Shown here: positions 8,263-40,598 of the stretch, piece after piece
How the letters are laid out: every line of letters starts with the position of its first letter
How positions within the stretch are numbered: the first letter of the stretch is position 1
DNA from: Actinomycetota bacterium
GTDB taxonomy: Bacteria > Actinomycetota > Coriobacteriia > Anaerosomatales > UBA912
DNA length: 50,966 bases
Direction: 5' to 3'
NCBI GenBank assembly: GCA_023488435.1
Contig: JAMDCK010000019.1
Span: forward strand, 1 to 50,966
The notes under the pieces: generated by a model
The model's database searches: none
Told to the model about the DNA's origin: nothing
What the model saw: the letters and a program-made list of their open reading frames with translations, nothing else
Translations under genes and position numbers: made by a program

Positions 8263-10380
<2,118 letters not shown>

Positions 10381-11267: not shown

Positions 11268-12388
11268 CAGGGCAGCATCCTTTCGAGCGCGGCGAGGAAC
11301 TGTGCGGCCTTGGCCTTCGAGTCGTGAGGCGCGGCATTGGCGATACACGCGGCTTCGAAGTGATTCCTGCCGAGGCCCACGACCTCTTCGAGGGCAGCGG
11401 CGAGCGCATCGGGATCCTCCGGTGGCACGATCCGACCGCAGGCCGGTGCCGTCAAGACCTCGGGGATGCCCCCGACTCGCGTGCCGACGCACGGAGTGCC
11501 GCACGCCATAGCTTCGAGCAGCACAAGGCCGAGGCCCTCGTTGCGGCTGGGCAGCGCGAGCACGTCGGCTGCGGCCATCCACGAAGCGAGCGTGGCCTGG
11601 TCGACAGCGCCGGGGAACGCGATGCGCCCGTGGGCGTCAGTGCGGCCGGCGCGCTCGAAGTGAGCGGCGGCGACCGCAGGGGTCATGAAGTCGGACGGAC
11701 CCGCGCCGATGAACACTAGGCGGTCCGCCGAGTCGCGCTCCCGCAGGCGGAGGAACGCCTCTAGCAGCACGTCGACGCCTTTGCCCTGCGTGAGGTTGCC
11801 GACGAAGAGCACGACGCGCTCGTCAGCAGGGATGCCCAGTCGCTCGCGAGCTTGCGGGTCGGGGCGAAAGACGTCGGAGTCGAAGCCCATGTTCACGACC
11901 GCAGAGGGCACTGACGCAGGAAGCGTCCCACTCTCGCGGAGGTAGCCCTCGAGCGCCGAGGAGACCGCGACCACCAGCCCGGCGCTCCCCACGGCCGCGC
12001 GCGACGCCCTAGCGATCGTGTCGCCGCGAGTCACACTGGTTGCATCGGTGCCGTGCGACACGAGCGCGTAGGGCGCGCCAGCGACGCGCGCCGCGATGCG
12101 CGCTATGGCCGCGGCCGGATAGAGGTAGTGGCCCACGACAGCGTCGTACCGGCCGCGGCCTACAGCCGCCGCCACGATAGCGCGTGCAAGCAGCGAGGAA
12201 TACTTGGCGGCGGCTGCGGCTTTGCCGGCGCGAGGGTCGGTATTGGCCACGACGGTGACTTGTGCGCCGGCAAAGCGTAGCGCGCTCACGTGGCGCGCGA
12301 CGAAGCCGCCGAAGACGGCGGCTGGCGCGGCCGGCCACAGGCCGCTGATCACGAGGAGCTTCAGGGGCTTGGGCTGCTGGCGCGACAT
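11267..12388 (-). CDS. Glycosyltransferase family 4
   Basis: A 373-residue GT-B enzyme that transfers a sugar from a nucleotide donor, presumably to a lipid-linked glycan at the cytoplasmic face. The N-terminal acceptor domain begins with LLVISGLWPAAPAAVFGGFV. The C-terminal donor domain has VLFVGNLTQGKGVDVLLEAF and the EX7E-type motif (PSRNEGLGLVLLEAMACGTP). The ATG overlaps the upstream DUF4330 stop by one base, and its own stop overlaps the nucleoside phosphorylase start. It is therefore at the end of the glycan operon, coupled to a metabolic gene. Donor and acceptor are unknown. Confidence 0.92.
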   Translation of the reverse strand: MSRQQPKPLKLLVISGLWPAAPAAVFGGFVARHVSALRFAGAQVTVVANTDPRAGKAAAAAKYSSLLARAIVAAAVGRGRYDAVVGHYLYPAAAIARIAARVAGAPYALVSHGTDATSVTRGDTIARASRAAVGSAGLVVAVSSALEGYLRESGTLPASVPSAVVNMGFDSDVFRPDPQARERLGIPADERVVLFVGNLTQGKGVDVLLEAFLRLRERDSADRLVFIGAGPSDFMTPAVAAAHFERAGRTDAHGRIAFPGAVDQATLASWMAAADVLALPSRNEGLGLVLLEAMACGTPCVGTRVGGIPEVLTAPACGRIVPPEDPDALAAALEEVVGLGRNHFEAACIANAAPHDSKAKAAQFLAALERMLP

Positions 12389-12828
12389 CAGTCGCTGTCC
12401 GCGGCCCGGATCCCGGTGATCAGCCCCGCGAATTGAACCGCAGTGGTTCCGTAGCGAAGGTCGTTGTTCACATAGACCAGCTGTTCACCGAATTTGAAGC
12501 CCTGGTCGGTCAGAGCGGCCTCTCCTTCGATGGTGACCTGAACATCCACAAGGATTGGCGAACGCGCCTCACGCAAGACTCCCTTGTTGTCGGGCAACGC
12601 AAGCAACGCCGGTTCCACGTTGACTTCTGATATTGTGCCCAGCACAGTTCCTGTGTCAGAGATGCGAACTTCATCTCCCACGACCAGGGACTGCTCGGTC
12701 GGTGGCATCAGTCCTCGAACCAGGATCTGAACCTCGACAGGTTCAGGGGATACGGTCGGAGTGCTTGGAGCACATCCGATCGTCAGCAGCATAGCCAAGG
12801 TCATGACCATTCCAAGTACTATTCTCAT
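12388..12828 (-). CDS. DUF4330-like lipoprotein
   Basis: A 146-residue protein with a signal peptide ending in lipobox LTIGC (Cys near residue 19), so probably membrane-anchored outside the cell. The remainder is beta-rich, with VVGDEVRISDTGTVLGTISE followed by VNVEPA and FKFGEQLVYVN. That pattern (KVGD-x-V...G-x-I...V) resembles DUF4330. A second protein of the same design lies just beyond the polymerase gene. Family function is unknown. It overlaps the polymerase gene by four bases. A role in glycan polymerisation or export is inferred only from position. Confidence 0.65.
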   Translation of the reverse strand: MRIVLGMVMTLAMLLTIGCAPSTPTVSPEPVEVQILVRGLMPPTEQSLVVGDEVRISDTGTVLGTISEVNVEPALLALPDNKGVLREARSPILVDVQVTIEGEAALTDQGFKFGEQLVYVNNDLRYGTTAVQFAGLITGIRAADSD

Positions 12829-14138
12829 TTTGTCCTCCGGTGTGCGCTAATCGAATACAACCATGGCATTCTGCGAACAGCAATGGCATCAAGCACGCAC
12901 ACTCCTATCGCTAGCGCCAAATATGCCAATGCGTAGGGATTGTGTACCCCCGCATTGACACCGTTGATCACATAACTCGCCATTGTCACGAATGGGGCGA
13001 TGAGCCAGGCGGCCCTGTCTGTCCTCTTCTGCATATATCCGAAAAGAAGTCCCAGGAGAAGCATCTGGCCTACAACTCCCAAGATTCCCCAGTCTGCGTA
13101 TGGGGCGCCAAGGAGCGTCGGCGCAAGGCTCACAGATCGCTCTATATGCACGCCGTCGATTACAAAGTATTGACGCCCGCCCAGATAGTTCCCCAGTTGA
13201 AAATTGGCATATTCGGCGTCCAACCCAGGAAGCAACGCCAGCGCACTGTCTTTCAGCAGCGCACCTCCGTACACTCCATCCGATGGGGTCAGGGTCACTA
13301 TTCGATCAAGGTTATATGTCGTACCGACGCTGTCGGAATAGATCAGTGCTACTGCAGCCTGCCAGGTCGCATCCGATCCGTAGATGCCTGCTTTGGAAAT
13401 GGCTCCGATGACCCCCATCACAAGAACCAGAATAAGAAAGAACCCGACTCCAATCTTGACCATCATCCGCGGCTTCAGAACCCAAGTGAGGGCAAGGAAG
13501 GTCGAAACAATCAGCTTCGCCGGGATGTTGCGTGCACCGAACAAGCCTAATGTGACCACTGCGAAGCAGAAGAGTACTGCCGCAAGAATTCGCTGGCCGC
13601 GCGTGCGTGCAAAAATAAACAGCCCTGGCACGAACATTATGTTGAGTGCCGAGATGAACACAAGCACCGGACTTTGCTCCCAGCGCGTGGCAATGTCGAA
13701 CAGACTCAGGCGCCCTATGTATAGCTGTATCAAGTTGGCTGACATGGCCACCATGTAACCGGATAGCATTGCGACGAACCCCACTCCGTAGCGCTGGAAT
13801 ATCGCCAAGGAGCGCACCCTCTCAATGAGCGATCTTAGGGGTGATCCTCCGTCAATCTTACTCTGCTGAATGGGTGCTTTCTCGGCCCTCTCGGCGATGG
13901 TTTTGCCCAAAAGATAGCCGAACACAAGAACCACCGCGGCATATGCGTAGAGCAGCAGAGTCTTCTCGCTGGGGTAAAAACCGATGATGCTCGTACCCAG
14001 ACTTGAAAGCTCCGGATAGACGAACCCATAGATGCTGGTCAATCCAATCAAAAAGTAGATCACATAGACGTAGAGCAGCACCGCGAATGGGGAGAGCAGT
14101 CGCTTCGTTAGTGAGTTTGGCTCCGTGTTAGCGAACAT
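12825..14138 (-). CDS. Wzy-like polysaccharide polymerase (O-antigen polymerase type)
   Basis: A 437-residue polytopic membrane protein with about ten to twelve hydrophobic segments and a large extracytoplasmic loop around residues 245-340, the layout of Wzy polymerases that join lipid-linked repeat units outside the membrane. Sequence similarity within that family is low, so the call rests on topology and context. The loop contains TYNLDRIVTLTPSDGVYGGA and a Gly/Tyr-rich stretch. It lies between two DUF4330-like genes and overlaps both by a few bases. An uncharacterised membrane transporter is the alternative. Confidence 0.65.
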   Translation of the reverse strand: MFANTEPNSLTKRLLSPFAVLLYVYVIYFLIGLTSIYGFVYPELSSLGTSIIGFYPSEKTLLLYAYAAVVLVFGYLLGKTIAERAEKAPIQQSKIDGGSPLRSLIERVRSLAIFQRYGVGFVAMLSGYMVAMSANLIQLYIGRLSLFDIATRWEQSPVLVFISALNIMFVPGLFIFARTRGQRILAAVLFCFAVVTLGLFGARNIPAKLIVSTFLALTWVLKPRMMVKIGVGFFLILVLVMGVIGAISKAGIYGSDATWQAAVALIYSDSVGTTYNLDRIVTLTPSDGVYGGALLKDSALALLPGLDAEYANFQLGNYLGGRQYFVIDGVHIERSVSLAPTLLGAPYADWGILGVVGQMLLLGLLFGYMQKRTDRAAWLIAPFVTMASYVINGVNAGVHNPYALAYLALAIGVCVLDAIAVRRMPWLYSISAHRRTK

Positions 14139-14586
14139 CTATTTGCGCAATCCTCCCGCGAACCTGATACTCCCTAGAGGAAACTGTGAACGGCATACCG
14201 ACCTGCACCACCTGTGTACCGATAGCGATGAAATCGGGGCTCTCGCGACCCTGCGTCACAATGACGAGTGTGATATCCCTAGTAAGCGGGTCGGGTGACG
14301 CCTGGAGAACCCCTGCTGCGTCAGGATTAGCCCGCATTGTCGGGGTGGCTGTGGCCTCCAGTACCTCGCCTACGAACATGCCCGCGGGCTGGCCGTAAAC
14401 TCGATCACCAACGGATACGGCTTGTGCAACATCAGGATGGGCGCCTGACACGACGACGGTGATGCGCACCTCTCTCTCATCGGAGACGCCGTCGGCTAGG
14501 CCGTCTAGGATGAAGGCGGCAGCTCCGCCGATGGTGATGACAGCAAGCACAATCAAAGCAATTGTTCTATTCGATGGGGGATTCAT
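14128..14586 (-). CDS. DUF4330-like membrane-anchored protein
   Basis: A 152-residue protein with one N-terminal membrane segment (about 9-28) and a beta-rich outer domain. VSVGDRVYGQPAGMFVGEVL matches the DUF4330 pattern of a 'VGD' strand followed by a 'GEV' strand, and the C-terminal half repeats it (IGTQVVQVGMPF). A longer reading to 14976 lacks this character and runs into the next gene, so I chose the ATG at 14586, with GTGGAG upstream. It overlaps the polymerase gene by 11 bases. Function unknown; see the sister gene at 12388. Confidence 0.7.
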   Translation of the reverse strand: MNPPSNRTIALIVLAVITIGGAAAFILDGLADGVSDEREVRITVVVSGAHPDVAQAVSVGDRVYGQPAGMFVGEVLEATATPTMRANPDAAGVLQASPDPLTRDITLVIVTQGRESPDFIAIGTQVVQVGMPFTVSSREYQVRGRIAQIDVR

Positions 14587-14719
14587 GAATCGTTGACTCC
14601 ACTTCGAGGTATTGTGACTTGCAGGTCGACCGCTGAGCAGGTACCGGTGAGATTTGCCATCATACCAACTCCGGCATCGTAATTCCAAGAACAGAAACAT
14701 GTGGCCCGCCGACAAGTGC

Positions 14720-16960
14720 TCACTCCAGCACCTGCTCGATCTGCCCTTGGACCCATCCGGACAGAGCCCCTTCGCCGCCAGCAATGAATACGCGATTGAT
14801 GACAGCAGACCTTGCGTCGATCTCCGAGCGTGTAGCGGGTGGCAACCGGTAGTCACTTGCGAACAGCAGCGGATTCCGATTGTGCCCCGTGAGGGGGCCG
14901 AAAACCAACGCATCAACAAGCGTATCCCCAGAAGCGACATATACCGTTCTAGCATTGAATCCTTCGTTGGCCACAAGATGCCGGGCCAGAAGCGAAGCCG
15001 TCTCGAAGCGATTCGCTCCCGCCGCTATCCTCCTAGCCCCAGTCAGCTGGTTTGTCACAGAATTGGATACGACCCCTGTGCCGCCAATCACCAGACTCAC
15101 CGAGGGCGTGATCGACGCTAAAGCTTGCGCCGAGTGGACTGGAATCAATCCTGGTCGGACCAAGATGACGGGAAGTCTGCACGCGTAAGCCAATCCGGCC
15201 GCAGCGATACCGTCCGGCACACTCTCCCCGCTGACTACGATCGCCCTGTTGGTGGGTGCCAGGCGATGCACCTCTCGGGCCACATTCGCAGCCGTCTCGA
15301 AGCGATCTACCCCTGCGAATCGATCAACTCTGCTGACACCTTGGATGCGAGCCAACTCGGAGCTTACCGATTGGCTTACCACACCGGTACCGCCCACAAC
15401 TATCACCCTGGATACACCTAATCGTCTGATCTCTGCAGCTGTCGAGGCCGGAACGCTGTCTTGTTCCACCATCAAGATCGGCGCACCACCGACAGCGCCT
15501 GCCAGGGAGGACGCAGGCAACATATCGGCAGGAGCATGTCCGTTGACGATGATCGCAGCCCTAGCAACAATGTGAGGTGTGGCTGCCACTGGAGCGAAGA
15601 CCCGTCTCGATGCCTCCACCGCTGTCCCGAATCGATCGGGTCCAGCTATCCGCGAGGTCTTTGGATTCACGTAGAACCAGTGATCCCCCCAGGCGAATGC
15701 ATTCCTGAATCGTTGGGTCTGGGCGTTGGTGCTGAACGTGCCGACGGCTGTCGGGCTCCTGAACTCAACCCGGGTTGGCCTACCCGACACCCCGCGCGCT
15801 GTGACCCTCACGCTCACGAGCGGGGTCGGGATCTGCGAAGCGGTTGCACCCGCGCGCATGAGTTGGTCTCTGACTTGTGCGGCAGTGAAGGTCTGACGCG
15901 TCCAAGAATGCCGAGATGCACCGGTGGTAACCTCATACGGGTCAGGAACGCCACGAAGGTGTGGCAGCGCCGCTACCCAAACGTTCTCGCTGTTCTCCGT
16001 ATGCCCACCTGAGGTGGAGTGGTAGAAGGTGCGAGCGATCTGGGCGGCACTGGTGCCCCCATAGGTGACTACTCGGCCAACCGTGGCATCGACCGCGCTG
16101 CTAGACCTTGGATGCTCGTGTGCTGTCGGATTGGCCCTATTCTCCCCGCGGGAATGCCCCCCGTAAACCTGACTCTCAGTCGTGCTATACAGCTCGTCCG
16201 TTCCTGAAGTCCATGAATAGGCTCGCGCTGCCACGGCCTGAGCTTTCAGCGCTTCGAGATGCCAACTGGCCGGCATCTCGCGGGGAACAACCCCGTAGAG
16301 ATATTCCGACATGTTGACGCGGTTGATGAGTTTTATCCTGCCGCCAGATGCGGTCAATCGCAACTCACCCCGGAAGCGCACGAATGTGTGCCCGTACTGG
16401 CCCGTACCTTCCCTAACCTGCGTCAACTGTGGTGTTCCCGAAGCCCCCCGGACGGCGATTGTGCCTGTGAATGTTTGCGGTGCGCGCCCCGGACCTCTAA
16501 AGATGATACTGGATCCCGACGCCTCGAAACTCGACCATCCGTCGGGGACAGTAGTGGTGGCATTACCGCCGCGAACCGTTAGCCCAGAGCCGACATTCCC
16601 CGGTCGCAGAGTCCACACCTGCCTTGTGAATCCGGCGTTGCCACCGCTATCGTAATTGGCCGCTCTATCCAGATTGACATCCCGAGAGGGCTCCGGCAGG
16701 ACCGTCGAAACTGCAGTGTTAGAATCGGTGCCTCCCGAACCGTAATAGTGCCTCAGGATATGCACGTAACCGTAGCCGGCCTCGGCAAAACCTCTCGCTC
16801 CCCATTGACTCATTCCTACGCCATGCCCGAAGCCCCTGCTTATGAAAGTGAATGTCGGCTGCGCATACGATGCAGCAGGCATGGAGCTCGAAAGCAACAG
16901 CAACGCCATGAGGGCGCCAAGGACACTTCTCCATCGAAATACACTCAGCCGGGCAGTCAT
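14720..16960 (-). CDS. Secreted SpoIID/LytB-domain protein with three CWB2 repeats
   Basis: A 746-residue exported protein. A signal peptide covers about residues 1-33 (ALMALLLLSSS). The SpoIID/LytB domain, about 38-430, carries GFGHGVGMSQWGARGFAEAG, the core MSEYLYGVVPREMPASW and the sequence LEALKAQAVAARAYSW. In SpoIID itself this fold is a peptidoglycan lytic transglycosylase. Residues about 445-746 form three cell-wall-binding type 2 repeats (RIAGPDRFGTAVEASRRVF; DRFAGVDRFETAANVAREV; RIAAGANRFETASLLARHL), which in Clostridioides bind an anionic wall polymer. GGAGTGATGCG precedes the ATG. It lies downstream of the LCP gene, suggesting a wall hydrolase held on the glycan made by this locus. 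Confidence 0.9.
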   Translation of the reverse strand: MTARLSVFRWRSVLGALMALLLLSSSMPAASYAQPTFTFISRGFGHGVGMSQWGARGFAEAGYGYVHILRHYYGSGGTDSNTAVSTVLPEPSRDVNLDRAANYDSGGNAGFTRQVWTLRPGNVGSGLTVRGGNATTTVPDGWSSFEASGSSIIFRGPGRAPQTFTGTIAVRGASGTPQLTQVREGTGQYGHTFVRFRGELRLTASGGRIKLINRVNMSEYLYGVVPREMPASWHLEALKAQAVAARAYSWTSGTDELYSTTESQVYGGHSRGENRANPTAHEHPRSSSAVDATVGRVVTYGGTSAAQIARTFYHSTSGGHTENSENVWVAALPHLRGVPDPYEVTTGASRHSWTRQTFTAAQVRDQLMRAGATASQIPTPLVSVRVTARGVSGRPTRVEFRSPTAVGTFSTNAQTQRFRNAFAWGDHWFYVNPKTSRIAGPDRFGTAVEASRRVFAPVAATPHIVARAAIIVNGHAPADMLPASSLAGAVGGAPILMVEQDSVPASTAAEIRRLGVSRVIVVGGTGVVSQSVSSELARIQGVSRVDRFAGVDRFETAANVAREVHRLAPTNRAIVVSGESVPDGIAAAGLAYACRLPVILVRPGLIPVHSAQALASITPSVSLVIGGTGVVSNSVTNQLTGARRIAAGANRFETASLLARHLVANEGFNARTVYVASGDTLVDALVFGPLTGHNRNPLLFASDYRLPPATRSEIDARSAVINRVFIAGGEGALSGWVQGQIEQVLE

Positions 16961-17004: not shown

Positions 17005-18444
17005 TCAATCCTGAGTTGCCCCTCGGCTTGGCGGAGTTCGACCCATTTGCCAGTCTTTGCCAACGACGACGAGCACGTCGGTGTCGAATGCGTACATACC
17101 GCGATAGTGAAGGACTCTACCCTGCCCGATCGTGGCAAGAACCATCTGGGCCAGTTGCTCGTTCTCGGCTTTGTACACTACCAAGGTCTCATCGTAGACG
17201 AACTGGTTCATGTTCCCGACATCGGCAACATTGTAGCGACCAGCCCTCAAGCGGGCGGCTGCATCATTTGCAACACCAGCAATGCCTGCACCATTTCGCA
17301 CAGCGACAGACACCTCTTCGGGGGCTACTTGTGTGGCCGGAGCACTCGCAGGATCCTCGAGCGGCTGTCCAGCCTTGACTCTAGCTAGGATCGCAGCGAA
17401 TGCCTCTTCATCAGCAACAATGAACGAGCCATTTCCGATGCGCTTCGGGGCACCAGGCATCGTCACCGTCTGAAACGCTGAACCTTGCATGCCTCGCATC
17501 TGGTTGGCTAGGCCGACGAGTTCTCCCACAGACATGTCGGTTGTCACCTGCTGGGCTACCGCATTGGCCATAAATGGTATCCGCAGGGCATTCTGCGCTT
17601 TGAAGAACTCATCCAAGAGGGCACGCAAGAAGACCTGCTGGTTCTCGATGCGCTGAAGATCACCCGTGGGGAAGTCTCGTGTCCTTACAAAGGTAAGCGC
17701 TTTCGCTCCGTCCAGACGCTGCTCCCCTGCTTCAATCACGGCCGCTGATCTGACGTAGCTGGCCGCCTCCATATCATTGACACGACTAGGGACATTGACC
17801 GTGACTCCGCCGACTGCATCGACGACCTCTTTGAAGCCGGCGAAGTCGACCTCGATGTAGTGGCTTATCGGTAGCCCTGTGAAATCGCGTACGGTCTCGA
17901 TGGCAAGCGATGCTCCACCATAGGCGGTAGCTGCATTTATCTTAGTTTTGCCGTGTCCGGGGATGTCGACATAAGTATCACGAGGAATCGAGATCAGAAC
18001 TGCGGACTGCTGTATCGGGTCGATTCTGGCCACGATGATCGTATCTGCTCGTGCACGTTCGCCTTCCTGACGGCTGTCGACTCCGATCATCAATGCGTAG
18101 AAGGGATCGTCCCGCTCAATGGTCTTGCTTTCCTCAAGCAACTCAACGGCGCGTTCATCGGTTGTCATCCGTGCCTGCAGGCGATCGTTGATGCCAGAGA
18201 TGAACAGCAATCCGGCCGCCAGCCCAACGAGCAGAACGACACCTAGGGCGACACCGGAAACGATAATCCTTCGCCGAAGCCGCATCGACCTCCTACGGCG
18301 CTCACCGTAGTCTCGCTTGCCGGTCCTGCGGGATTGCTCCGCGGGAGATTCGAACGATCGCGTTTTGGGCTGAAGCCTGTCGATTCGGCCAGGGCGTCTG
18401 GCTCTGCGCCCGCGAGGTGGGCGACCTATGTAATCGTCACTCAT
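17005..18444 (-). CDS. LytR-CpsA-Psr (LCP) glycopolymer ligase with LytR_C domain
   Basis: A 479-residue membrane-anchored enzyme of the family that transfers lipid-linked glycopolymers to peptidoglycan. A basic cytoplasmic tail (Arg-rich, 1-55) precedes one membrane segment (about 58-80). The LCP catalytic domain (about 110-280) contains MIGVDSR, RADTIIVARIDP, VLISIPRDTYVDIP and the closing FVRTRDFPTGDLQRIENQQV, with the expected Asp and Arg residues. The C-terminal LytR_C-like domain (about 375-470) has VAVRNGAGIAG. The ATG overlaps the stop of the upstream DUF354 copy by four bases. The first 27 codons are part of the 707-bp tandem duplication. This copy is complete. Confidence 0.93.
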   Translation of the reverse strand: MSDDYIGRPPRGRRARRPGRIDRLQPKTRSFESPAEQSRRTGKRDYGERRRRSMRLRRRIIVSGVALGVVLLVGLAAGLLFISGINDRLQARMTTDERAVELLEESKTIERDDPFYALMIGVDSRQEGERARADTIIVARIDPIQQSAVLISIPRDTYVDIPGHGKTKINAATAYGGASLAIETVRDFTGLPISHYIEVDFAGFKEVVDAVGGVTVNVPSRVNDMEAASYVRSAAVIEAGEQRLDGAKALTFVRTRDFPTGDLQRIENQQVFLRALLDEFFKAQNALRIPFMANAVAQQVTTDMSVGELVGLANQMRGMQGSAFQTVTMPGAPKRIGNGSFIVADEEAFAAILARVKAGQPLEDPASAPATQVAPEEVSVAVRNGAGIAGVANDAAARLRAGRYNVADVGNMNQFVYDETLVVYKAENEQLAQMVLATIGQGRVLHYRGMYAFDTDVLVVVGKDWQMGRTPPSRGATQD

Positions 18445-19776
18445 GTACCGCTCTTTTCGGGCCTGGATGTCTTTCTTGCGACAGCTGCGATCCTATCCAC
18501 CAGTTCTCCGACATCACGAGAAACACGGGAGCCTGCGTGCCGCTTCTTCACTAATTCGATCTGGCTTGCGTTGGCGGGCAGACTCATCCTGCCCTGTGCG
18601 ATCAAATCCTTGTCGACCGCACCCATGACTCCACTGAATACAGTATAGGCGGGGGTGCCAAGTGCAACGGCTTCACGGTTGAGTGTTCCGCCGCCTGATA
18701 CAACGAGGTCGGCGTAGTATATCAAGCTCTGCGCATCGACCACCTTGTTCGGGATTATGAGGTTGTCGGCACCGATAGCGGCGACGCCATCCCGCTGTTC
18801 AGGGGTGCGAAGGAGCACGACTCCCTGTACATCAGGACGGGCAGCCACAATGTGCAAGAACTCATCGAACAGCGTGTTCTCCATGCGATGATACGCGGCA
18901 AGTGACGGGGGTGTCCGAAGAACCACGATGATCTTGTCGGTATCCAGTCCCAGTTCGTCCACGACCTTTGAATCCGGCTCGAAGTCAGCCAGATAGTACT
19001 CTTCTTTGAGTCCCGGATACCGGTCCACCTTCTGGGGCCTTCCTCCGTATTGGAGCAGCGCGTCGGCGGTTTTGGGCTGAAGCCTGTCGATTCGGCCAGG
19101 GCGTCTGGCTCTGCGCCCGCGAGGTGGGCGACCTATGTAATCGTCACTCATGTACCGCTCTTTTCGGGCCTGGATGTCTTTCTTGCGACAGCTGCGATCC
19201 TATCCACCAGTTCTCCGACATCACGAGAAACACGGGAGCCTGCGTGCCGCTTCTTCACTAATTCGATCTGGCTTGCGTTGGCGGGCAGACTCATCCTGCC
19301 CTGTGCGATCAAATCCTTGTCGACCGCACCCATGACTCCACTGAATACAGTATAGGCGGGGGTGCCAAGTGCAACGGCTTCACGGTTGAGTGTTCCGCCG
19401 CCTGATACAACGAGGTCGGCGTAGTATATCAAGCTCTGCGCATCGACCACCTTGTTCGGGATTATGAGGTTGTCGGCACCGATAGCGGCGACGCCATCCC
19501 GCTGTTCAGGGGTGCGAAGGAGCACGACTCCCTGTACATCAGGACGGGCAGCCACAATGTGCAAGAACTCATCGAACAGCGTGTTCTCCATGCGATGATA
19601 CGCGGCAAGTGACGGGGGTGTCCGAAGAACCACGATGATCTTGTCGGTATCCAGTCCCAGTTCGTCCACGACCTTTGAATCCGGCTCGAAGTCAGCCAGA
19701 TAGTACTCTTCTTTGAGTCCCGGATACCGGTCCACCTTCTGGGGCCTTCCTCCGTATTGGAGCAGCGCGTCGGCGG
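18362..19776. repeat. Exact tandem duplication, period 707 bp, across the LCP/DUF354 boundary
   Basis: Copies run 18362-19068 and 19069-19775, with one shared base at 19776. They appear identical. The unit includes the 5' end of the LCP gene and the last two thirds of the DUF354 gene. The period is not a multiple of three. No transposon ends are seen. Confidence 0.9.
18441..19151 (-). pseudogene. Chimeric reading frame: LCP start fused to DUF354 C-terminus
   Basis: The 236-residue frame starts with the first 27 residues of the LCP protein (MSDDYIGRPPRGRRARRPGR...) and then enters the DUF354 protein at ADALLQYGGRPQ, about residue 146 of the intact version, through to its end. It is a by-product of the 707-bp duplication, in frame by chance. 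It lacks the N-terminal half of the glycosyltransferase-like fold and is unlikely to work. Intact LCP and DUF354 genes lie on each side. Confidence 0.85.
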
Positions 19777-20209
19777 GTATCGCATCCGGTATCAGGGATT
19801 TGGTCGAGAATCTGACGTTGATCGAGTGCGAGAGTTTAGCGAACTCGTAGTCGAACATCGTCACGTGCGGAATGCCGAGAAGGCGCGCGGCCACGGGTAG
19901 GTCGTTGCTCGCATGTGACAGCGCCAGATCGTACCCTCGGCCGGCGCCGAACGAAAGCATCTGGGCCGAGCGGGCTGCCATGCCCCAAGCTTTGGCGACC
20001 ATCCGCTTACCGCGGTGTCTGCCAATAACCGTATGCTCGATCTCGAATCGCTCAAGCAACGGGATGGTCTGGGCGAATTCGCGCGCTGTGACCGACACGT
20101 CCCACCCGCGCCTCTTGAACTCATCGATGATCGGGCGCAACACAAGGACGTGTGGAGAGTTGGTCATGTCGATCCACAAACGCGGACCGCCGGAGGAGCC
20201 TGCAGACAC
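19148..20209 (-). CDS. DUF354 protein, glycosyltransferase-like (GT-B fold)
   Basis: A 353-residue protein related in fold to UDP-GlcNAc 2-epimerases and GT-B glycosyltransferases. The N-terminal domain begins LWIDMTNSPHVLVLRPII. The C-terminal domain has IIVVLRTPPSLAAYH and the donor-site-like VSGGGTLNREAVALGTPAYT. DUF354 genes are often next to nucleotide-sugar epimerases, as here, and a glycosyltransferase role is plausible but unproven. The GTG start at 20209 is preceded by GGAGG and lies two bases after the epimerase stop. This is the full-length copy; its last two thirds are duplicated downstream. Confidence 0.85.
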   Translation of the reverse strand: MSAGSSGGPRLWIDMTNSPHVLVLRPIIDEFKRRGWDVSVTAREFAQTIPLLERFEIEHTVIGRHRGKRMVAKAWGMAARSAQMLSFGAGRGYDLALSHASNDLPVAARLLGIPHVTMFDYEFAKLSHSINVRFSTKSLIPDAIPADALLQYGGRPQKVDRYPGLKEEYYLADFEPDSKVVDELGLDTDKIIVVLRTPPSLAAYHRMENTLFDEFLHIVAARPDVQGVVLLRTPEQRDGVAAIGADNLIIPNKVVDAQSLIYYADLVVSGGGTLNREAVALGTPAYTVFSGVMGAVDKDLIAQGRMSLPANASQIELVKKRHAGSRVSRDVGELVDRIAAVARKTSRPEKSGT

Positions 20210-20211
20210 TA

Positions 20212-21294
20212 TCAGCCTCCGAACCTTGCTTCAATCGCTTCCACGATCTGCACCGCAGCATTGCCGTCACCGTAAACCGAGGGCTTCGCCGCAGGCTTGG
20301 ACATCGCGGAAACCGCCGCGACGATCCTGTCGCTGTCTGCTCCGGCAAGCGTGTTCCAGCCCAGCTCGACAGTCTCGGTCCACTCGGTCTCCTCGCGCAT
20401 GGTCACACAAGGCACGCCGAAGAAGTATGCCTCTTTTTGCATCCCGCCCGAATCGGTGAGAATTCCCTTCGCGCTTCGTAGCAACGAGACCGTGTCGATA
20501 TATGAGATCGGGGGTACAACGATGAGGTTTTCTGCGGATGCGACACTCTCACCAAGACCGAAGTCCTCAAGATTCTTGCTGGTTCGGGGATGGATCGCCC
20601 ACAGCACCGGCAGCTCAAGACGCGAAAACGCCGAGATGATCTCTTGGAGGCGTGACTTGCTATCACTGTTGCCAGCGCGATGTACCGTGGCGAAGTAATA
20701 CTCGCCGGCTTTCACCCCATATTGCTCCAGCGCTTGCGATGGATCCACGTGCTCGGCAAAGAACTTCGCTGTATCCAGCATCACGTCACCGACCAGATGG
20801 ACTCCATTGGTGATGCCTTCGGCCGTTAGATTGGCTACGGATACACGGGTGGGACAAAGAAGAAGCTCCGAGACGTGATCGACCAGAACGCGGTTTATCT
20901 CCTCTGGCATCGAGCGGTTGAACGAGCGCAATCCTGCCTCGACATGTGCCACGGGGATGCTAAGCTTCGCCGCTGCTAGTCCTGCTGCCAGGGTCGTGTT
21001 GGTGTCGCCATAGACGACCACCAGGTCGGGGTTCTTCTCGATGAAAAGCTCCTCTAGCATAGGCATCATCTCGCCGGTCTGTCTGGCGTGTGAGCCAGAC
21101 CCGACCGCAAGATTGAAGTCGGGCTTTGGAATGCCTAGCTGCTCGAAGAACACATCTGACATCGCATAATCGTAGTGCTGACCGGAGTGGACAAGCAGCT
21201 CATCGTGAGCCTCTCGCAGAGCGCGGCAGACCGGTGCGGCCTTCACGAACTGCGGTCTGGCTCCTACAACCGATATGACCGAAAGTCGCCTCAC
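20212..21294 (-). CDS. wbpI: Non-hydrolysing UDP-N-acetylglucosamine 2-epimerase family (WbpI/WecB)
   Basis: A 360-residue GT-B-fold epimerase that inverts C2 of a UDP-GlcNAc-type sugar. Seen: GARPQFVKAAPVCRAL at the start, SGQHYDYAMSDVFFEQL, VVVYGDTNTTLAAGLAAAKL, HVEAGLRSFNRSMPEEINRV and the C-terminal DSGGMQKEAYFFGVPCVTMR. A longer reading to 21387 adds unrelated residues; the GTG at 21294 overlaps the aminotransferase stop by four bases (GTGA). With WbpA, B, E and D-like genes nearby, UDP-GlcNAc3NAcA (WbpI activity) is the likelier substrate than UDP-GlcNAc (WecB activity). Sequence alone does not decide. Confidence 0.9.
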   Translation of the reverse strand: MRRLSVISVVGARPQFVKAAPVCRALREAHDELLVHSGQHYDYAMSDVFFEQLGIPKPDFNLAVGSGSHARQTGEMMPMLEELFIEKNPDLVVVYGDTNTTLAAGLAAAKLSIPVAHVEAGLRSFNRSMPEEINRVLVDHVSELLLCPTRVSVANLTAEGITNGVHLVGDVMLDTAKFFAEHVDPSQALEQYGVKAGEYYFATVHRAGNSDSKSRLQEIISAFSRLELPVLWAIHPRTSKNLEDFGLGESVASAENLIVVPPISYIDTVSLLRSAKGILTDSGGMQKEAYFFGVPCVTMREETEWTETVELGWNTLAGADSDRIVAAVSAMSKPAAKPSVYGDGNAAVQIVEAIEARFGG

Positions 21295-22406
21295 GCTACC
21301 GCCGCCTTCACCACTGCCACGACTTGCTCGATCTGGGCTCGGGTAATCCCCGGGAACGCGGGAAGAGCGAAAGTCCGGGCATCGCACGACTCCGCCACGG
21401 GCAAAGAAGGCTGGATGTAGTCCGGCTTCTTCGTGAACACCTCTTGCTCGTGCAAGGCTAGTGGATAGTAAAGTGCGGTACCGATTCCCGCAGCAGCCAA
21501 GGCCTGCATGACCTGCTCTGCAGCCTCGGCCGTTTGGGTTTTGACGATGTAGAGGTGGTATACCTGCTCGCCGAACTCACGCGTCACCGGTAGCTCCAAC
21601 GCCGACACGTCGGCCAGAAGCTCGTCGTAGATCGCTGCGGCTTCTCGGCGCTGCGCATTCCACACATCCAGATGCGGCAACTTGACCAGTAATATCGCAG
21701 CCTGCAGGGAATCGAGTCTGCTGTTGGTGCCAAAGGTGTCATGGAAGTACTTCTTCGTCGTCCCATGCTGCGCGAGGTTGCGGATCTTCTTGGCCAGCGC
21801 CTCATCATCGGTGGTAACAATCCCGCCGTCTCCGGCACAACCGAGGTTCTTGCTGGGGAAGAAGGAGAACGCCGCAGCATGTCCTAGAGAGCCCGCCTTC
21901 TTTCCCTTGTACGTCGCGCCGATAGCCTGGCATGCGTCCTCGATAACGAGCAGGTCGTGTGCGCGGGCTAAATCGAGCAGCGGATCCATGTCCACGCACT
22001 GCCCGAAGATGTGGACGGGCATGATGGCCTTGGTGCGCTCGGTAATGGCCGCCTCGAGCTTCGAGACGTCCATGTTGTAGGTTCCGGGCTCGATATCGAC
22101 AAAGACCGGGGTGGCGCCTACATGTGCGATCGCCTCAACCGTGGCGAAGAATGTGAATGGAGTCGTAATGACCTCGTCGCCCTTGCCTACCCCCATGGCA
22201 GCCAATATCAGGAAGAGAGCGTCGGTACCGTTCGCGCAAGCAACGGCGTGCTTGGTGCCGCAATAGCTAGCGATCTGGTCCTCAAGTTCTTTGACCTTCG
22301 GGCCGCCGATGAACGCTGCATTGGCCATTATCTCGCCGATAGCTGAGTCCAGCTCGGGCTTGAGCTCCATGTATTGAGCTTTCAGGTCAAGAAGGGGTAC
22401 TCCCAT
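21291..22406 (-). CDS. wbpE: DegT/DnrJ/EryC1-family sugar aminotransferase (WbpE-like)
   Basis: A 371-residue PLP enzyme that aminates a 3-keto (or 4-keto) nucleotide sugar. Seen: VPLLDLKAQYMELKPEL, CANGTDALFLILAAMGVGKG (PLP phosphate site), PVHIFGQCVDMDPLL, VIEDACQAIGATYKG and FSFFPSKNLGCAGDGGIVTT with the Schiff-base Lys. In the WbpA-B-E-D-I route this enzyme converts the 3-keto-GlcNAcA made by WbpB to the 3-amino sugar. An upstream ATG at 22430 exists, but AAGGAG lies nine bases before the ATG at 22406. It overlaps the epimerase start. Confidence 0.9.
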   Translation of the reverse strand: MGVPLLDLKAQYMELKPELDSAIGEIMANAAFIGGPKVKELEDQIASYCGTKHAVACANGTDALFLILAAMGVGKGDEVITTPFTFFATVEAIAHVGATPVFVDIEPGTYNMDVSKLEAAITERTKAIMPVHIFGQCVDMDPLLDLARAHDLLVIEDACQAIGATYKGKKAGSLGHAAAFSFFPSKNLGCAGDGGIVTTDDEALAKKIRNLAQHGTTKKYFHDTFGTNSRLDSLQAAILLVKLPHLDVWNAQRREAAAIYDELLADVSALELPVTREFGEQVYHLYIVKTQTAEAAEQVMQALAAAGIGTALYYPLALHEQEVFTKKPDYIQPSLPVAESCDARTFALPAFPGITRAQIEQVVAVVKAAVA

Positions 22407-22572
22407 ACGGCGATTCTCCTTATTCGACAAAAGTGCAGCTTACATCTTAGCCCATCACAGCGCAGGGCATGCCAGCTCGTCATCGGGCTGTAATAAAATA
22501 GTAGCATCAAAAGTGACGTGGCATCTCGGCAACGAAAATCCCCGACATTGTCAGGAGTGCCCCGCCTCGCTC

Positions 22573-25002
22573 TTATCTACCGAGAGCGATACGAACCTGT
22601 CCCCGCACGTAGTCGCTTATCGCACCAGTGCCCCCGATGAATATGCAGGTTGGTGGTGTTGCTCGGCGGCTCATCAAGTAGTTCGCGACCGTCGGAGAGC
22701 CACCGATCTCGGTGCCATCGATGAGTATAGCAGCGTTACCCTGCCTAGCAGCAACCGGTCCCAGTGCCAGAGCATCAGGCCAGTTGCGTCCTGTCGCGAA
22801 AAACAGTGTCTGATCGCGTAGCCCGCCGAATGCCACGGAGTACCTCTTCACGGCAAGAGCTGTGTTATACCTGTTCGCTCCAGCCAGCCGGGTGTTGACG
22901 TTCAGTGAGCCGTCGGCGACTCCGGGTCGCCTATACCCGTTGGTTTCAAGCCACTGCTCAACCGCAGGACTCACCGCAGCCGACCCGCCGACGATCGTCA
23001 CATTCTGGATTCCGAGTGTTTGGAGGGCGCTCTCTATGTCGCTAGGAACCGAGTTGGGCCTTACCGGCAGCAAGGGGATTCCGTGCTCGGCAGCGAGTGC
23101 GCCTACAGCAAGCGCGTCGGGGTAATTCTCGCCGCTCACTACTATGGCAGTGCGCGCGAATGCGCCTTGAGAGGGCGTGCCCACACGCTGAGCGATCGCC
23201 CGGGCGGTCCCGTAACGGTCGTTGCCCCACAACCGATCTATAGTGACTGTGGTGCCAGCGGCCGCCAGCACCTGTCGGGCTGCATTGACGGCACTTTGCG
23301 ATACGGCCGCCTCTCCGCCAACCACCAATAGGGTTGCATTCTGCCTACCGGAGAACAAGCGTCTGAGTTCTCCAGAAATCTCGCTGGTGAGACCTGTCGG
23401 AGGAAGCAAGAGCAGGGGCGCGTCAAGCCTTCCGGCAAGCGGCGCCGCCGCAAGAGCATCCGCATAGCCAGCACCGGTGGCAAGAATCACCGTATTGCTG
23501 GTCGAGGCGCCATTGGGCCACCCGTGATTCGCTAGTGCGATGGTAGTCGTGTACCGGTTGTTCCCGGCGATACGGCTACCGATTACAGGTCTGTTCCCGG
23601 CATTCGTCAGAGCTTGCGCCCCTAGGCGTGAGCCCGACATGGCCCTTCCTGTCGAATCAATGAACAGGGTTCGCTCGGCGATAGGCCAGCCTCCTCGGAA
23701 GTAATCGAAGTATTGATAGGTCATCCGGATTCTCCAAGTACCCGGACGCGGGTTGCGCAGCGGAATCTGATAGCTCCTGTGAGTGTAGGACCAACCAGGA
23801 GGCAACGGTGTCAGATCGTCGTATGCCTGACCGCGATAGACAACTTGGCCCGCCGGATCACGCACCTCGACGCGAAGGGGTCCGCGCAGCGAAACACCGC
23901 CCCTGTTTGTGACTGTCTGGTTGATGAACAGCGTCTCCCGCGTGTACCACGCAGATCCCGTCATGGAAACCGCCTTGGGCAGGTGAAAGTAAGTGCTACG
24001 CGTGCCCGCCCATCGCACCGAGTTGACCAAGACCCGTCTTGCGACGCTCGCTGTCCTCGCATCAGCTGACTGGCCTTCAACGATGAGGTCGTGCATGTGG
24101 AATCCAAAGTAGACGAATCGACCGAAGTAGTACTCCGATGTCCATGCAGCAAGGTGCCCCGACTGCACATCATCCGTAGTCACCCGGTCGACTCGCGTAT
24201 TGTAGCGGTAAAGCGGGGTTACATTTCTTGCCCCAGGCATGGTGTAGAGAATCTCATTGAACCGATTGAGTCTATCCACCAGCCGGCGTGATTCTCCGGC
24301 TGCAAAACCGTTAGTGAGGATCCAGTGCGAGCTGGCTGACTCGAGATTGTAAGGGCCGTACATGCGCGGATCATCTCGGAACTTGACGTTGTATATCTCG
24401 GAGATCTCTCCCCACTCCCAAGGCTTGAGAGCAGCTGTACTGGCCGGCCAGTAGAAGACCCCGGGATAGCCGTGCATGCCGAGAAATGGCAGGTATCCGA
24501 ACCTGTAACTGGGGCTGGCATCCCACCGTGACAATGCGAAGCTACCTACAATCCCTCCGCCTTCACTTGCGTACGCAAGGATAGCGGTGCGCTGAGCGGG
24601 GGTGGTGGCTAGCGTCATGGTGAAGACAAGAACGTCAAATTGTCTGAGGGTGGCCAGAGAAGCAAGTCCTGCATCATCAACGTAAGCTGTGACGAATCCC
24701 TGCGAGTCAAGGAGCCTTTTGACCTGGTCGACCCTGCCTGTGTAGTAGTTGTTGAGCCGGGTTCCGCTACGGTAGTTGCGAGTGTTTGCCGCAGTGACCG
24801 TGTGGACTATGCCGACACGTAGGGCGGCTGGCTGGGCCACGACACTCTGTGCGGTTACAGGATTAGCGTGAGCAGGCTCGGTGCCCAAAGTGGCAGTTCC
24901 GGAAGCCGATTGTGCGATGAGAATGCAAGCGACAGCCAGTGCTACGAGGCGTAAGTGCGGAACGAGCGGTCTTTGAGGGGTTCGTGTCCGATGCATGTCC
25001 AT
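22573..25002 (-). CDS. Secreted protein with three CWB2 repeats and a GATase-like N-terminal domain
   Basis: An 809-residue exported protein. A signal peptide covers about residues 1-48. Residues about 60-160 alternate strands and helices (LRVGIVHTVTAANTRNY, FDVLVFTMTL, AILAYASEGGGIVGSFA), resembling the ThuA/glutamine-amidotransferase-like fold; no catalytic triad is evident. A beta-rich region (about 345-450) follows. Three CWB2 repeats (RIAGNNRYTTTIALANHG; RLWGNDRYGTARAIAQRV; RLAGANRYNTALAVKRYS) run from about 475 to the end. Two close ATGs exist; the second (24996) has the better ribosome-binding spacing. It lies inside the sugar-nucleotide gene set, between the acetyltransferase and aminotransferase genes, so it may bind the polymer they help make. 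Confidence 0.85.
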   Translation of the reverse strand: MDMHRTRTPQRPLVPHLRLVALAVACILIAQSASGTATLGTEPAHANPVTAQSVVAQPAALRVGIVHTVTAANTRNYRSGTRLNNYYTGRVDQVKRLLDSQGFVTAYVDDAGLASLATLRQFDVLVFTMTLATTPAQRTAILAYASEGGGIVGSFALSRWDASPSYRFGYLPFLGMHGYPGVFYWPASTAALKPWEWGEISEIYNVKFRDDPRMYGPYNLESASSHWILTNGFAAGESRRLVDRLNRFNEILYTMPGARNVTPLYRYNTRVDRVTTDDVQSGHLAAWTSEYYFGRFVYFGFHMHDLIVEGQSADARTASVARRVLVNSVRWAGTRSTYFHLPKAVSMTGSAWYTRETLFINQTVTNRGGVSLRGPLRVEVRDPAGQVVYRGQAYDDLTPLPPGWSYTHRSYQIPLRNPRPGTWRIRMTYQYFDYFRGGWPIAERTLFIDSTGRAMSGSRLGAQALTNAGNRPVIGSRIAGNNRYTTTIALANHGWPNGASTSNTVILATGAGYADALAAAPLAGRLDAPLLLLPPTGLTSEISGELRRLFSGRQNATLLVVGGEAAVSQSAVNAARQVLAAAGTTVTIDRLWGNDRYGTARAIAQRVGTPSQGAFARTAIVVSGENYPDALAVGALAAEHGIPLLPVRPNSVPSDIESALQTLGIQNVTIVGGSAAVSPAVEQWLETNGYRRPGVADGSLNVNTRLAGANRYNTALAVKRYSVAFGGLRDQTLFFATGRNWPDALALGPVAARQGNAAILIDGTEIGGSPTVANYLMSRRATPPTCIFIGGTGAISDYVRGQVRIALGR

Positions 25003-25101
25003 ACCCTATGATATCGGCTCGCGTCCCAAGATGCTTGACGGGTTCTCCGATGGCCGCGACGGGAAAACCCGCCGACGCGCCGGTGCACGCCCGCTAGCCC
25101 G

Positions 25102-25908
25102 CTAGCCCTCAGCGCTTTCCAGCAGCTCCTCGGCGGGTACCGGGCGTACTGGCTTGGCCGGAACCCCCATCACGATGGTATTGGCGGGCACGTCCTTGGT
25201 GACGACAGCGCCGGTCGCAATGAACGCCTCGGCACCGATCTCGATGCCGGGGAGGAGGTGAGCGCCGCCGCCCACACGGGCGCCTCGGCGGACGGTACAG
25301 CCGCGAAGGTGCTTGAACCGCTCCTGCGTCCGGCCCATGAAGTTGTCGTTGGTGGTGACCACCATTGGCGCGATGAAGACGTCTTCCTCGAGGGTGACGT
25401 AGGCGGTGATGTATGCGCCGCTCTGGATCTTCGTGCGCGAGCCGATCGTGGTGTCGTTCTCGACGGTGACGGAGCGGCCGATGACGACGCCGTCGCCCAT
25501 CGTGCACCGCTCGCGGACGCCAGCGTTGTCACCGACGATGCACCGCTCGCCGAAGGTGGTACCGGCCATCAGCACGGTGTGGCTTCCTACCGAGCAGCCC
25601 GCGCCGAGCCGCACGCCCGCGAGTTCCTCGCGCTTGGCTGTCGATGACGCCGCTAGCCGGGGTCGGCGACCGATAACCGCAAAGTCCGCGACGTGGACTC
25701 CGTCGGCGAGCCTCGCCCCGGAGCAGATCGTGACGTGATTACCAATCGAGCATCCGTCGGCGATGTGTGCGCCGGCTTCGATGACCACGAACGAGCCGAC
25801 CGTGACGCCGTCGCCGATCTTGACATCCTCGCCTATTGCAACGCCTAGGCCGTGTGCGAAGCCCCCACCGATGGTAGCGCTATCTGCGGAGTGCAAGCCG
25901 TGACCCAT
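25102..25908 (-). CDS. wbpD: Left-handed beta-helix N-acetyltransferase (WbpD-like)
   Basis: A 268-residue hexapeptide-repeat acyltransferase. Repeats such as VAIGEDVKIGDGVTVGSFVV and IGNHVTICSGARLADGV run from about residue 10, pause about 95-110 (ASSTAKREELAG), and resume to about 245, ending in TGAVVTKDVPANTIVMGVPA. WbpD acetylates the 3-amino group of UDP-GlcNAc3NA. WbpD-type enzymes are nearer 190 residues; here about 80-100 extra N-terminal residues add a second short helix. GGAGG precedes the ATG, overlapping the end of the oxidoreductase gene (three-base gap). The specific substrate is inferred from neighbours. Confidence 0.85.
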   Translation of the reverse strand: MGHGLHSADSATIGGGFAHGLGVAIGEDVKIGDGVTVGSFVVIEAGAHIADGCSIGNHVTICSGARLADGVHVADFAVIGRRPRLAASSTAKREELAGVRLGAGCSVGSHTVLMAGTTFGERCIVGDNAGVRERCTMGDGVVIGRSVTVENDTTIGSRTKIQSGAYITAYVTLEEDVFIAPMVVTTNDNFMGRTQERFKHLRGCTVRRGARVGGGAHLLPGIEIGAEAFIATGAVVTKDVPANTIVMGVPAKPVRPVPAEELLESAEG

Positions 25909-25911: not shown

Positions 25912-26937
25912 TCAGACCTCCAGCTTGGTCGAGACTGGCGCGCCGAGGTTCTGCATCGACTCATCGACGGCTTCGAGCACTCGCACGACGCAAAGACCTG
26001 CTCGGCCATCGCTCCTGGGCGTCTGCCCATTACGGCAGCAGTCTAGGAAGTGCTGGACCTCTGTGGCCAGAGGCTCTTTGAGCGGAACCCAGGGCACGTT
26101 GATGTCCCCGAACCGCAACGTGAGATCCTCGCCGTAGGCCATAGCGCTTTCGGGCTCACCGAGGCCACGGTCGTATATCCAGATCTTCTCGGTGGCCTCC
26201 ATGTCATCGAACACGAGCATCTTCTTGGTGCCTACGACCGTGAGCTTCCTCACCTTGTGCGGATCGAGCCAGCTCACGTGGATGTTGGCCATCTTGCCGC
26301 TGGGGAAATGCAGGTTCGCAAAGACGGTGTCCTGCACGCCGTTGGTGACATAAGCGGCACCACTTGCGCTCACATAATCAGGGCTCTCGCCCAGTAGATA
26401 AAGTGCGATCGAGACATCATGGGGTGCCAGCGACCAGAATGCGTTCTCCTCGGTGCGGACTTTGCCGAGGTTGAGGCGCTGCATGTACAGATAGAGCGGA
26501 TCGCCCAGCTCCCCCGACTCGATGTAGTTCTTGATCCAGTCGATAGCCGAGTGGTAGACCATCAGGTGCCCGACCATCAGGATGACTCCTGCGGCATCGG
26601 CAGCGAGCACGAGCTTCTCGGCGTCTGCGCTGGTAAGCGTGAGCGGCTTCTCAACGAAGCAGTGCTTCCCAGCTTCGATGACCTTGCTCGCGACAGCGAA
26701 GTGGCTCGGCGCGCTGGTGACGACGAGCACGGCGTCGATATCGTCGCGTGCAAGCATTGCGTCGAGGTCGGTGGTGGTGTCGGCGTATGGGTAGAGCTCG
26801 GCGAATCGCGCAAGGTTGGCCTCGCTGGCGTCGACGGCTGCCACGATCTGGGCATCCGCCAGCCTGTCAAGGTTGCGCACAACGTTGGGGCCCCAGTACC
26901 CGAAGCCTACGACACCGACCCGCACAGGCGCGCTCAC
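25912..26937 (-). CDS. wbpB: Gfo/Idh/MocA-family oxidoreductase (WbpB-like 3-dehydrogenase)
   Basis: A 341-residue NAD-dependent dehydrogenase. The N-terminal Rossmann domain starts VRVGVVGFGYWGPNVVRNLD, followed by VLVVTSAPSHFAVASKVIEA and HCFVEKPLTLTSADAEKLV with the family Lys. The C-terminal domain has HDVSIALYLLGESP. WbpB oxidises C3 of UDP-GlcNAcA to feed the aminotransferase. A longer reading to 27525 is the wrong protein for its first 196 residues; the GTG at 26937 overlaps the UDP-sugar dehydrogenase stop by four bases. The gene order A-B-D fits the pathway. Confidence 0.9.
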   Translation of the reverse strand: MSAPVRVGVVGFGYWGPNVVRNLDRLADAQIVAAVDASEANLARFAELYPYADTTTDLDAMLARDDIDAVLVVTSAPSHFAVASKVIEAGKHCFVEKPLTLTSADAEKLVLAADAAGVILMVGHLMVYHSAIDWIKNYIESGELGDPLYLYMQRLNLGKVRTEENAFWSLAPHDVSIALYLLGESPDYVSASGAAYVTNGVQDTVFANLHFPSGKMANIHVSWLDPHKVRKLTVVGTKKMLVFDDMEATEKIWIYDRGLGEPESAMAYGEDLTLRFGDINVPWVPLKEPLATEVQHFLDCCRNGQTPRSDGRAGLCVVRVLEAVDESMQNLGAPVSTKLEV

Positions 26938-28229
26938 AGGAGCACCACCTTCGGGTCGCCATCGATCTTCAGGGCGTTGCGGGTATCGAGCACGAGCGCC
27001 GCCTCTCTCAGCACGAGGTCGTAGTCGACCCCGGAGTGGTTGGTGATCACGAGCACGACATCTGCCGAGGAGACCTCCTCGGCGGTCAGCTCGACCTTGG
27101 GGATTGTCACTCCGCCTGCCGAGAAGGTCGGCACGTGCGGGTCGTGGTAGACGACTTCGGCCCCTTTTTGGGCGAGTAGCTCGGTGACGATGATCGCGGG
27201 TGATTCGCGCATATCGCTGATGTCGGGCTTGTAGGCGACCCCGAGTACGAGCACGCGCGAGCCGTTGAGCGACTTGCGGTGACGGTTGAGCGCGTCCATC
27301 AGGCGCTCGATCACGTAGTAGGGCATCGACTCGTTGATCCTGCCCGACAGGTCGATGAACTCGGTCCGAAAGTCGTACTGCCGGGCCTTCCATGACAGGT
27401 AGAGCGGGTCGATCGGGATGCAGTGTCCGCCCAGGCCGGGACCAGGGTAGAACGGCATGAAGCCGAAGGGTTTGGTCTTCGCGGCGTCGATGACCTCCCA
27501 CAGGTTGATCCCCATGCGGTTGCACAGGAGCAGCAACTCATTGACGAGCGCGATGTTCACTCCGCGGAATGTGTTCTCGAGCAACTTGGTCATCTCGGCA
27601 GCTTGGGTTGAGGATACCGGCACGAGCGTGTCGATGAAGCGCCCGTACATGGCCACCGCAAGTGCGGTGCACTGCTTGGTCACGCCGCCGACGACCTTGG
27701 GCGTATTGCGGGTCTGAAAGACTGGGTTGCCGGGATCGACCCTCTCGGGCGAGAAGGCTAAGAACAGGTCGACGCCGACCTTGCGGCCGCCGGACTCGAG
27801 TATCGGGCGGATGACCTCCTCGGTCGTGCCCGGATACGTTGTGGACTCCAGCGTCACGAGAGCGCCGACTTTGACGTGCGGGGTGATTGAGCGGGCGGCA
27901 GACTCCATGTAGGAGGTGTCGGGCTGCTTCATCTCATCGAGAGGGGTGGGAACGCAGATCGCGATAGCGTCACAGACCGACATCGCCGAGAAGTCCGTGG
28001 TTGCGCTGACAAGCCCCTTCCCAACTAGGCTCGCAAGCTCGCATCCATCGACGTCTGGGATGTAGTTCTCGCCTCGGTCAAGCTGCGCCACCCGCTGCGC
28101 CGAGACATCGACTCCGATGACTCTGTAGCCCGCCTTGGCCATCTCGACTGCGAGCGGAAGTCCTACATAGCCCAATCCCACAACGCCGAGAACCGCCGTG
28201 CCGTCATTCAAACGCTCATCCAAACCCAT
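26934..28229 (-). CDS. wbpA: Nucleotide-sugar 6-dehydrogenase (WbpA/WecC type)
   Basis: A 431-residue enzyme of the UDP-glucose/UDP-GlcNAc/UDP-ManNAc dehydrogenase family, which oxidises the C6 alcohol to a carboxylate with two NAD. Seen: VVGLGYVGLPLAVEMAKAGY, CVPTPLDEMKQPDTSYM, LVTLESTTYPGTTEEV, the active-site region GLGGHCIPIDPLYLSWKA with the catalytic Cys, and LVLGVAYKPDISDMRESPA. GGAGAGCA precedes the ATG. It is the first gene of the sugar-nucleotide set, 31 bases after fabZ. UDP-GlcNAc is the likely substrate from context. Confidence 0.92.
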   Translation of the reverse strand: MGLDERLNDGTAVLGVVGLGYVGLPLAVEMAKAGYRVIGVDVSAQRVAQLDRGENYIPDVDGCELASLVGKGLVSATTDFSAMSVCDAIAICVPTPLDEMKQPDTSYMESAARSITPHVKVGALVTLESTTYPGTTEEVIRPILESGGRKVGVDLFLAFSPERVDPGNPVFQTRNTPKVVGGVTKQCTALAVAMYGRFIDTLVPVSSTQAAEMTKLLENTFRGVNIALVNELLLLCNRMGINLWEVIDAAKTKPFGFMPFYPGPGLGGHCIPIDPLYLSWKARQYDFRTEFIDLSGRINESMPYYVIERLMDALNRHRKSLNGSRVLVLGVAYKPDISDMRESPAIIVTELLAQKGAEVVYHDPHVPTFSAGGVTIPKVELTAEEVSSADVVLVITNHSGVDYDLVLREAALVLDTRNALKIDGDPKVVLL

Positions 28230-40445: not shown

Positions 40446-40534
40446 CGTCTGTCCAACACTCATGTGCAGGTTCATGGTACTTTCTACCGCCCCTACCTGT
40501 GCTTTTTTACCAAACCTCGATCTTGGGTTTAGGC

Positions 40535-40563: not shown

Positions 40564-40598
40564 TGTGTTCACATATATGCGCAAATCGGGGTGAAAAG

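Follow-up and report, generated by a model that had tools for sequence, protein, structure and literature searches.

A ThuA-like protein with CWB2 repeats co-occurs with polymerase type in wall-polymer clusters of Anaerosomatales

The window analysed here is the whole 50,966-nucleotide stretch of contig JAMDCK010000019.1 (assembly GCA_023488435.1), from a bacterium of the order Anaerosomatales. The gene of interest lies between a wbpD-like and a wbpE-like gene, within a set of wall-polysaccharide genes. Relatives are numbered; G000 is the window genome, G001 is from the same genus, G002 and G003 are from the same family and G037 is from a different family. All genomes are drafts, mostly metagenome-assembled, and presence or absence was scored by similarity search, such that absences may be gaps. 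The features discussed are as follows.

11267–12388, reverse strand: GT4 glycosyltransferase
12360–14717, reverse strand: polymerase segment (DUF4330, O_anti_polymase, DUF4330), unmatched at the DNA level in G001
12825–14138, reverse strand: O_anti_polymase (PF01901) polymerase, type A
14720–16960, reverse strand: SpoIID/LytB domain protein with three CWB2 repeats, 5.6 kb from the ThuA-CWB2 gene
17005–18444, reverse strand: LCP (LytR-CpsA-Psr) family glycopolymer ligase
19148–20209, reverse strand: DUF354 protein, glycosyltransferase-like
20212–21300, reverse strand: UDP-GlcNAc 2-epimerase family protein (wbpI/wecB-like; similarity search)
21291–22430, reverse strand: wbpE-like DegT/DnrJ aminotransferase (solved relatives include WbpE)
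22494–25101, reverse strand: segment absent from G001, where the site is empty and the wbpD stop codon adjoins the wbpE leader
22573–25002, reverse strand: exported protein with ThuA-like, Ig-like and three CWB2 domains (open reading frame of 809 amino acids, ATG start; orthologues found)
22606–23574, reverse strand: its three CWB2 repeats (placed by PF04122)
23638–24849, reverse strand: its ThuA/GH42M-like Rossmann domain followed by an Ig-like sandwich, residues 52–455 (alignment, Pfam, model and Foldseek)
25102–25908, reverse strand: wbpD-like hexapeptide N-acetyltransferase (solved relatives)
25912–26910, reverse strand: wbpB-like dehydrogenase of the Gfo/Idh/MocA type (within a longer mechanical open reading frame)
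26934–28229, reverse strand: wbpA-like UDP-sugar 6-dehydrogenase (similarity search)

Elsewhere, the window holds a raiA RNA at 5140–5381 on the reverse strand (161.8 bits; Rfam RF03072) and three perfect tandem duplications, a number that is suspicious in one window. The first (8631–10322, unit 846 bp) falls in the S-adenosylhomocysteine hydrolase gene, which encodes 701 amino acids compared with 419 in relatives, and its 100% identity suggests an assembly artefact. The second (18362–19775, unit 707 bp), probably also an artefact, gives a chimeric open reading frame (18441–19151) of LCP N-terminal and DUF354 C-terminal parts that is absent from G001; the third (40231–43010, unit 1390 bp) doubles two reading frames, one regulator-like and one flavodoxin-like (named by eye).

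A sequence-only reading of the window had described an exported protein with three CWB2 repeats between wbpD and wbpE, and the open reading frame, the Pfam matches and the neighbouring genes confirm this. An N-terminal signal peptide was recognised by eye (a basic start, the hydrophobic stretch LVALAVACILIA and then AHA/N). CWB2 (PF04122) matches at 167.9 bits (E = 7 × 10−50; Pfam cut-off of 24.9) in three stretches, at residues of about 477–571, 590–682 and 705–799. A PILL-type motif is expected in each CWB2 repeat (PMC4973711), and the corresponding positions read PLLL, PLLP and AILI in repeats 1, 2 and 3, respectively. The CWB2 module resembles those of Clostridioides difficile Cwp6 and Cwp8 (5j72 and 5j6q; phmmer E = 1 × 10−20 to 2 × 10−22), although the alignment is restricted to this region and the remainder of the protein is unaligned. 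Membership of the C. difficile SlpA family (NF033435) was rejected at 63 bits, from the CWB2 region only, against an equivalog cut-off of 650. Modelling the full-length structure from the single sequence gave no useful information (pLDDT of 40).

Homologues of all five enzymes of the UDP-2,3-diacetamido uronic acid pathway (WbpA, WbpB, WbpD, WbpE and WbpI) are encoded in the window, and the solved relatives of the wbpD-like and wbpE-like products include WbpE and other sugar-nucleotide acetyltransferases. The product of the pathway is given here as an inferred one because the 2-epimerase alone passes its NCBIfam equivalog cut-off. In relatives, the recurrent order around wbpB is murA, fabZ, wbpA, wbpB, wbpD, wbpE and wbpI, and many continue with DUF354, LCP, SpoIID-CWB2, ThuA-CWB2, DUF4330, polymerase, GT4, PNP, SAHH and mtnA. 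The suggestion that CWB2 proteins are encoded beside wall-glycopolymer genes is borne out for the cluster across the order; 23 CWB2 genes fall in 34 cluster regions compared with about 6.8 expected from genome-wide density (Poisson P of about 8 × 10−7, which is optimistic for homologous regions taken from CWB2-bearing genomes). At cluster level, therefore, CWB2 genes do lie together with those for polymer synthesis. The SpoIID proteins of the cluster carry CWB2 in CWB2-rich genomes and lack it in G054 and G035. Several genomes without the ThuA-CWB2 protein have, in the same cluster, a protein with BNR_4 and three CWB2 domains (L106 5436–7835, L146 7838–10234, L148 7747–10062 and others); strict replacement of one protein by the other was rejected, as the window genome has both (BNR_4-CWB2 on contig C20).

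Such co-location is not new. The CWB2 repeats of C. difficile bind PSII, an anionic wall polymer (PMC4973711), and the PSII (AP) locus adjoins the slpA/cwp locus, with Cwp19 inside the AP locus (PMC4973711, PMC5842191). The window holds an arrangement of this kind in a different phylum, with CWB2 genes, including one for a protein with three repeats, beside an anionic wall-polymer cluster and an LCP ligase. It differs in its wbp-type sugar genes, where C. difficile has mannose-type genes, and in the ThuA-like/Ig-like effector region; a link to polymerase type is not described for C. difficile in the excerpts available of these sources. In the open-access literature searched, no study of CWB2 ligands from Coriobacteriia came to light, nor did any CWB2 ligand outside Clostridia.

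The distribution of the ThuA-like domain follows the polymerase. The domain occurs in 14 of the 69 genomes of the order, and the same 14 were the only ones among 398 genomes drawn from the class. Two sequence types can be distinguished. Type A is found in six genomes (G000, G037, G005, G010, G006 and G013), five of which are the five genomes with an O_anti_polymase (type A) polymerase (G000, G037, G005, G010 and G013; P = 5 × 10−7), and all eight genomes with type B have a Wzy_C polymerase, which is present in 14 genomes (P = 4 × 10−7). No cross-association of either type with the other polymerase was seen in the 69 genomes. Overall, the ThuA-like protein is associated with a polymerase at P = 3 × 10−9 and with wbpB at P = 0.03, in counts that ignore kinship among genomes that are not phylogenetically independent. 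DUF354 belongs with the same set (P = 4 × 10−7 with ThuA). The ThuA-like protein is present in 13 of the 14 genomes that combine either polymerase with four or more CWB2 repeats, in none of the four with a polymerase and no CWB2, and in 1 of the 38 with CWB2 and neither polymerase. All four within-genus contrasts are concordant, with ThuA type and polymerase co-varying (G000 with G001, G005 with G020, and G013 and G064 each with its genus). Against the link, G001 has a Wzy_C polymerase and the ThuA-like protein was not found, in G006 the ThuA-like gene is present and the polymerase was not found, on a contig that ends inside the ThuA gene, and the ThuA gene lies away from the cluster in G064, G032 and G013. 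G037 is instructive; its ThuA-CWB2 gene shares contig C32 with wbpA, LCP, polymerase, DUF354 and C5-epimerase genes, with wbpB, wbpD and wbpE on another contig. This D-glucuronyl C5-epimerase gene (PF06662; L061 8121–9227) adjoins the ThuA-CWB2 gene in the G037 wall-polymer cluster.

Comparison with G001 bears on how the gene came to stand where it does. Between 11.3 and 30.8 kb, the two genomes align at 82–91% outside two non-aligning segments, 12360–14717 and the ThuA-CWB2 insert, which are 8 kb apart. At the first, G001 has DUF4330 and a Wzy_C polymerase instead; at the second, its wbpE leader directly follows the wbpD stop codon, where the window carries an extra 2.6 kb. G002 and G003 also have adjacent wbpD and wbpE genes, with a distant type B ThuA-CWB2 gene after SpoIID-CWB2. 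The proposal that ligand and binder are encoded together was to fall if the gene order occurred only in this assembly, and that is the outcome; across the clusters surveyed in relatives, the order wbpD, ThuA-CWB2, wbpE was found in the window assembly alone. The closest relative of the ThuA-like protein (76%), the polymerase (67%) and DUF4330 (59%) is G037, whereas the wbpB of the window matches that of G037 at 66% compared with 73–77% for those of G013 and G005. Because both segments differ from G001 and, unlike wbpB, are closest to G037, this reads as an exchange of the polymerase together with its surface partner, in one event or two. We also considered, and did not adopt, a mobile element as the source of the insert; apart from GGCTAGC, a short repeat at the stop codon of wbpD, no repeats stand out by eye at the junctions.

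Polysaccharide loci are recombination hot spots, and a gene with an unrelated surface function might have inserted beside wbpE by chance. The clean insertion, the low GC3 of the gene (0.63 compared with 0.78–0.83 in wbpA, wbpB, wbpD and murA) and the unlinked ThuA copies of three relatives are in keeping with such hitch-hiking. We nonetheless consider it unlikely, given that each of the two ThuA types matches its own polymerase type even where the genes are not adjacent.

Somewhat less probable still is the model of the sequence-only reading, in which the CWB2 protein is a receptor for the product of wbpABDEI, an acidic diamino-uronic sugar. Speaking for it are the location of the gene, flanked by wbpD and wbpE, the full complement of wbp homologues and the anionic polymer bound by CWB2 in C. 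difficile (PMC4973711), but the position is private to one assembly and a link specifically to the genes for the acidic sugar is not supported, the polymerase being tracked far better than wbpB. Moreover, wbpB was not detected in the CWB2-rich G060, G057, G045, G059 and G011, the clusters of which run in the order murA, wbpA (where read), LCP and CWB2 genes; only a wbpB fragment is present in G025; and wbpB occurs without any CWB2 in six genomes (G054, G036, G041, G030, G046 and G029). With so many exceptions, a strong rule that CWB2 richness follows wbpB was rejected, although wbpB and the presence of at least 10 CWB2 repeats are correlated (odds ratio of about 5; P = 0.003 in all genomes and P = 0.07 in those at least 90% complete). 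Because CWB2-rich relatives without wbpB exist, CWB2 does not in general have the acidic diacetamido sugar as its ligand or depend on it. The wbpA dehydrogenase is widespread (56 of 69 genomes), and a uronic acid derived from it is a possible part of the ligand.

The receptor model also has to accommodate the abundance of the anchor. The 1.7-Mb draft genome of the window has 46 CWB2 repeats on 12 contigs, eleven of them beyond that of the window; in this genome CWB2 commonly serves as a surface anchor, the ThuA-CWB2 gene being one of many. In the CWB2-poor G013 and G032, the ThuA-like protein lacks CWB2, and on a contig of a metagenome-assembled Acidimicrobiia genome (L128 9905–11950) the ThuA-like/Ig-like module is joined to SLH repeats instead and adjoins amidase-SLH, M23-SLH and GT2 glycosyltransferase genes. 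Because the anchor varies by host (CWB2, SLH or none), CWB2 is the standard, exchangeable anchor of the host and by itself does not mark a special receptor.

The distinctive part of the protein is its N-terminal module. The label ‘ThuA/amidotransferase-like’ given to it earlier is apt for the fold at most. ThuA (PF06283) reaches 27.5 bits with the full-length protein and 29.8 with the isolated domain, below the curated cut-off of 33.4, and this domain contains no cysteine in the window protein, nor is one conserved among 14 relatives; because of this score and the missing catalytic cysteine, a class I glutamine amidotransferase was ruled out. The 14 module members match ThuA (14 of 14) and Glyco_hydro_42M (11 of 14) weakly, with which they share a Rossmann-type domain; unlike those families, the window module is exported and fused to Ig-like and wall-anchor domains. 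A model built from eight sequences (mean pLDDT of 60) has a Rossmann-like core and a β-sandwich, and its top Foldseek neighbours, with low whole-model TM-scores, are GH42 and GH3 enzyme domains and Ig-like domains including that of Wzt. The likeness of the Ig-like domain to the Wzt carbohydrate-binding domain is weak (one member at E = 3 × 10−4, with Wzt structures among distant fold matches). Antibody heavy-chain and scFv matches around a GGGLV stretch in a PDB profile search were judged spurious. That the module is an enzyme, a glycosidase or deacylase acting to remodel or release wall polymer, as the enzyme fold neighbours and a WEWG..SE motif, E199 and R244 (domain numbering) nearly invariant across the two types might suggest, is the least probable alternative, since the matched GH42 region is the trimerisation (GH42M) domain and not the missing catalytic barrel, the module has no cysteine nucleophile and model confidence falls below 50 in the motif region.

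Our preferred reading, to which we assign a probability of roughly 0.55, is that the protein is exported and held by CWB2 on the glycopolymer of the cluster, where its N-terminal module works with the polymer type defined by the polymerase. The wbpABDEI enzymes would supply acidic sugar nucleotides, DUF354, GT4 and the polymerase would assemble the chain, and the LCP enzyme would attach it to peptidoglycan. The three CWB2 repeats would keep the protein on the wall non-covalently, most likely, by analogy with C. difficile, by binding the polymer made by the same cluster, and the ThuA-like/Ig-like module may contact this polymer at the surface, either to bind or to remodel it. The 809-amino-acid protein is therefore probably a surface partner of the polymer of the polymerase and not a dedicated acidic-sugar receptor. 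More tentatively, the exported module could be a dedicated partner of the polymerase itself, with two types that match two polymerase families, that move between lineages together and that take a host-specific anchor.

These results also indicate that immediate gene neighbours can mislead, as the telling partner here is 8 kb away. The order offers natural contrasts, both among close relatives that do not share the polymerase and the ThuA-CWB2 protein and in CWB2-rich genomes without wbpB, which allow us to ask which part of the wall polymer is recognised by CWB2 and whether surface proteins match polymer type.
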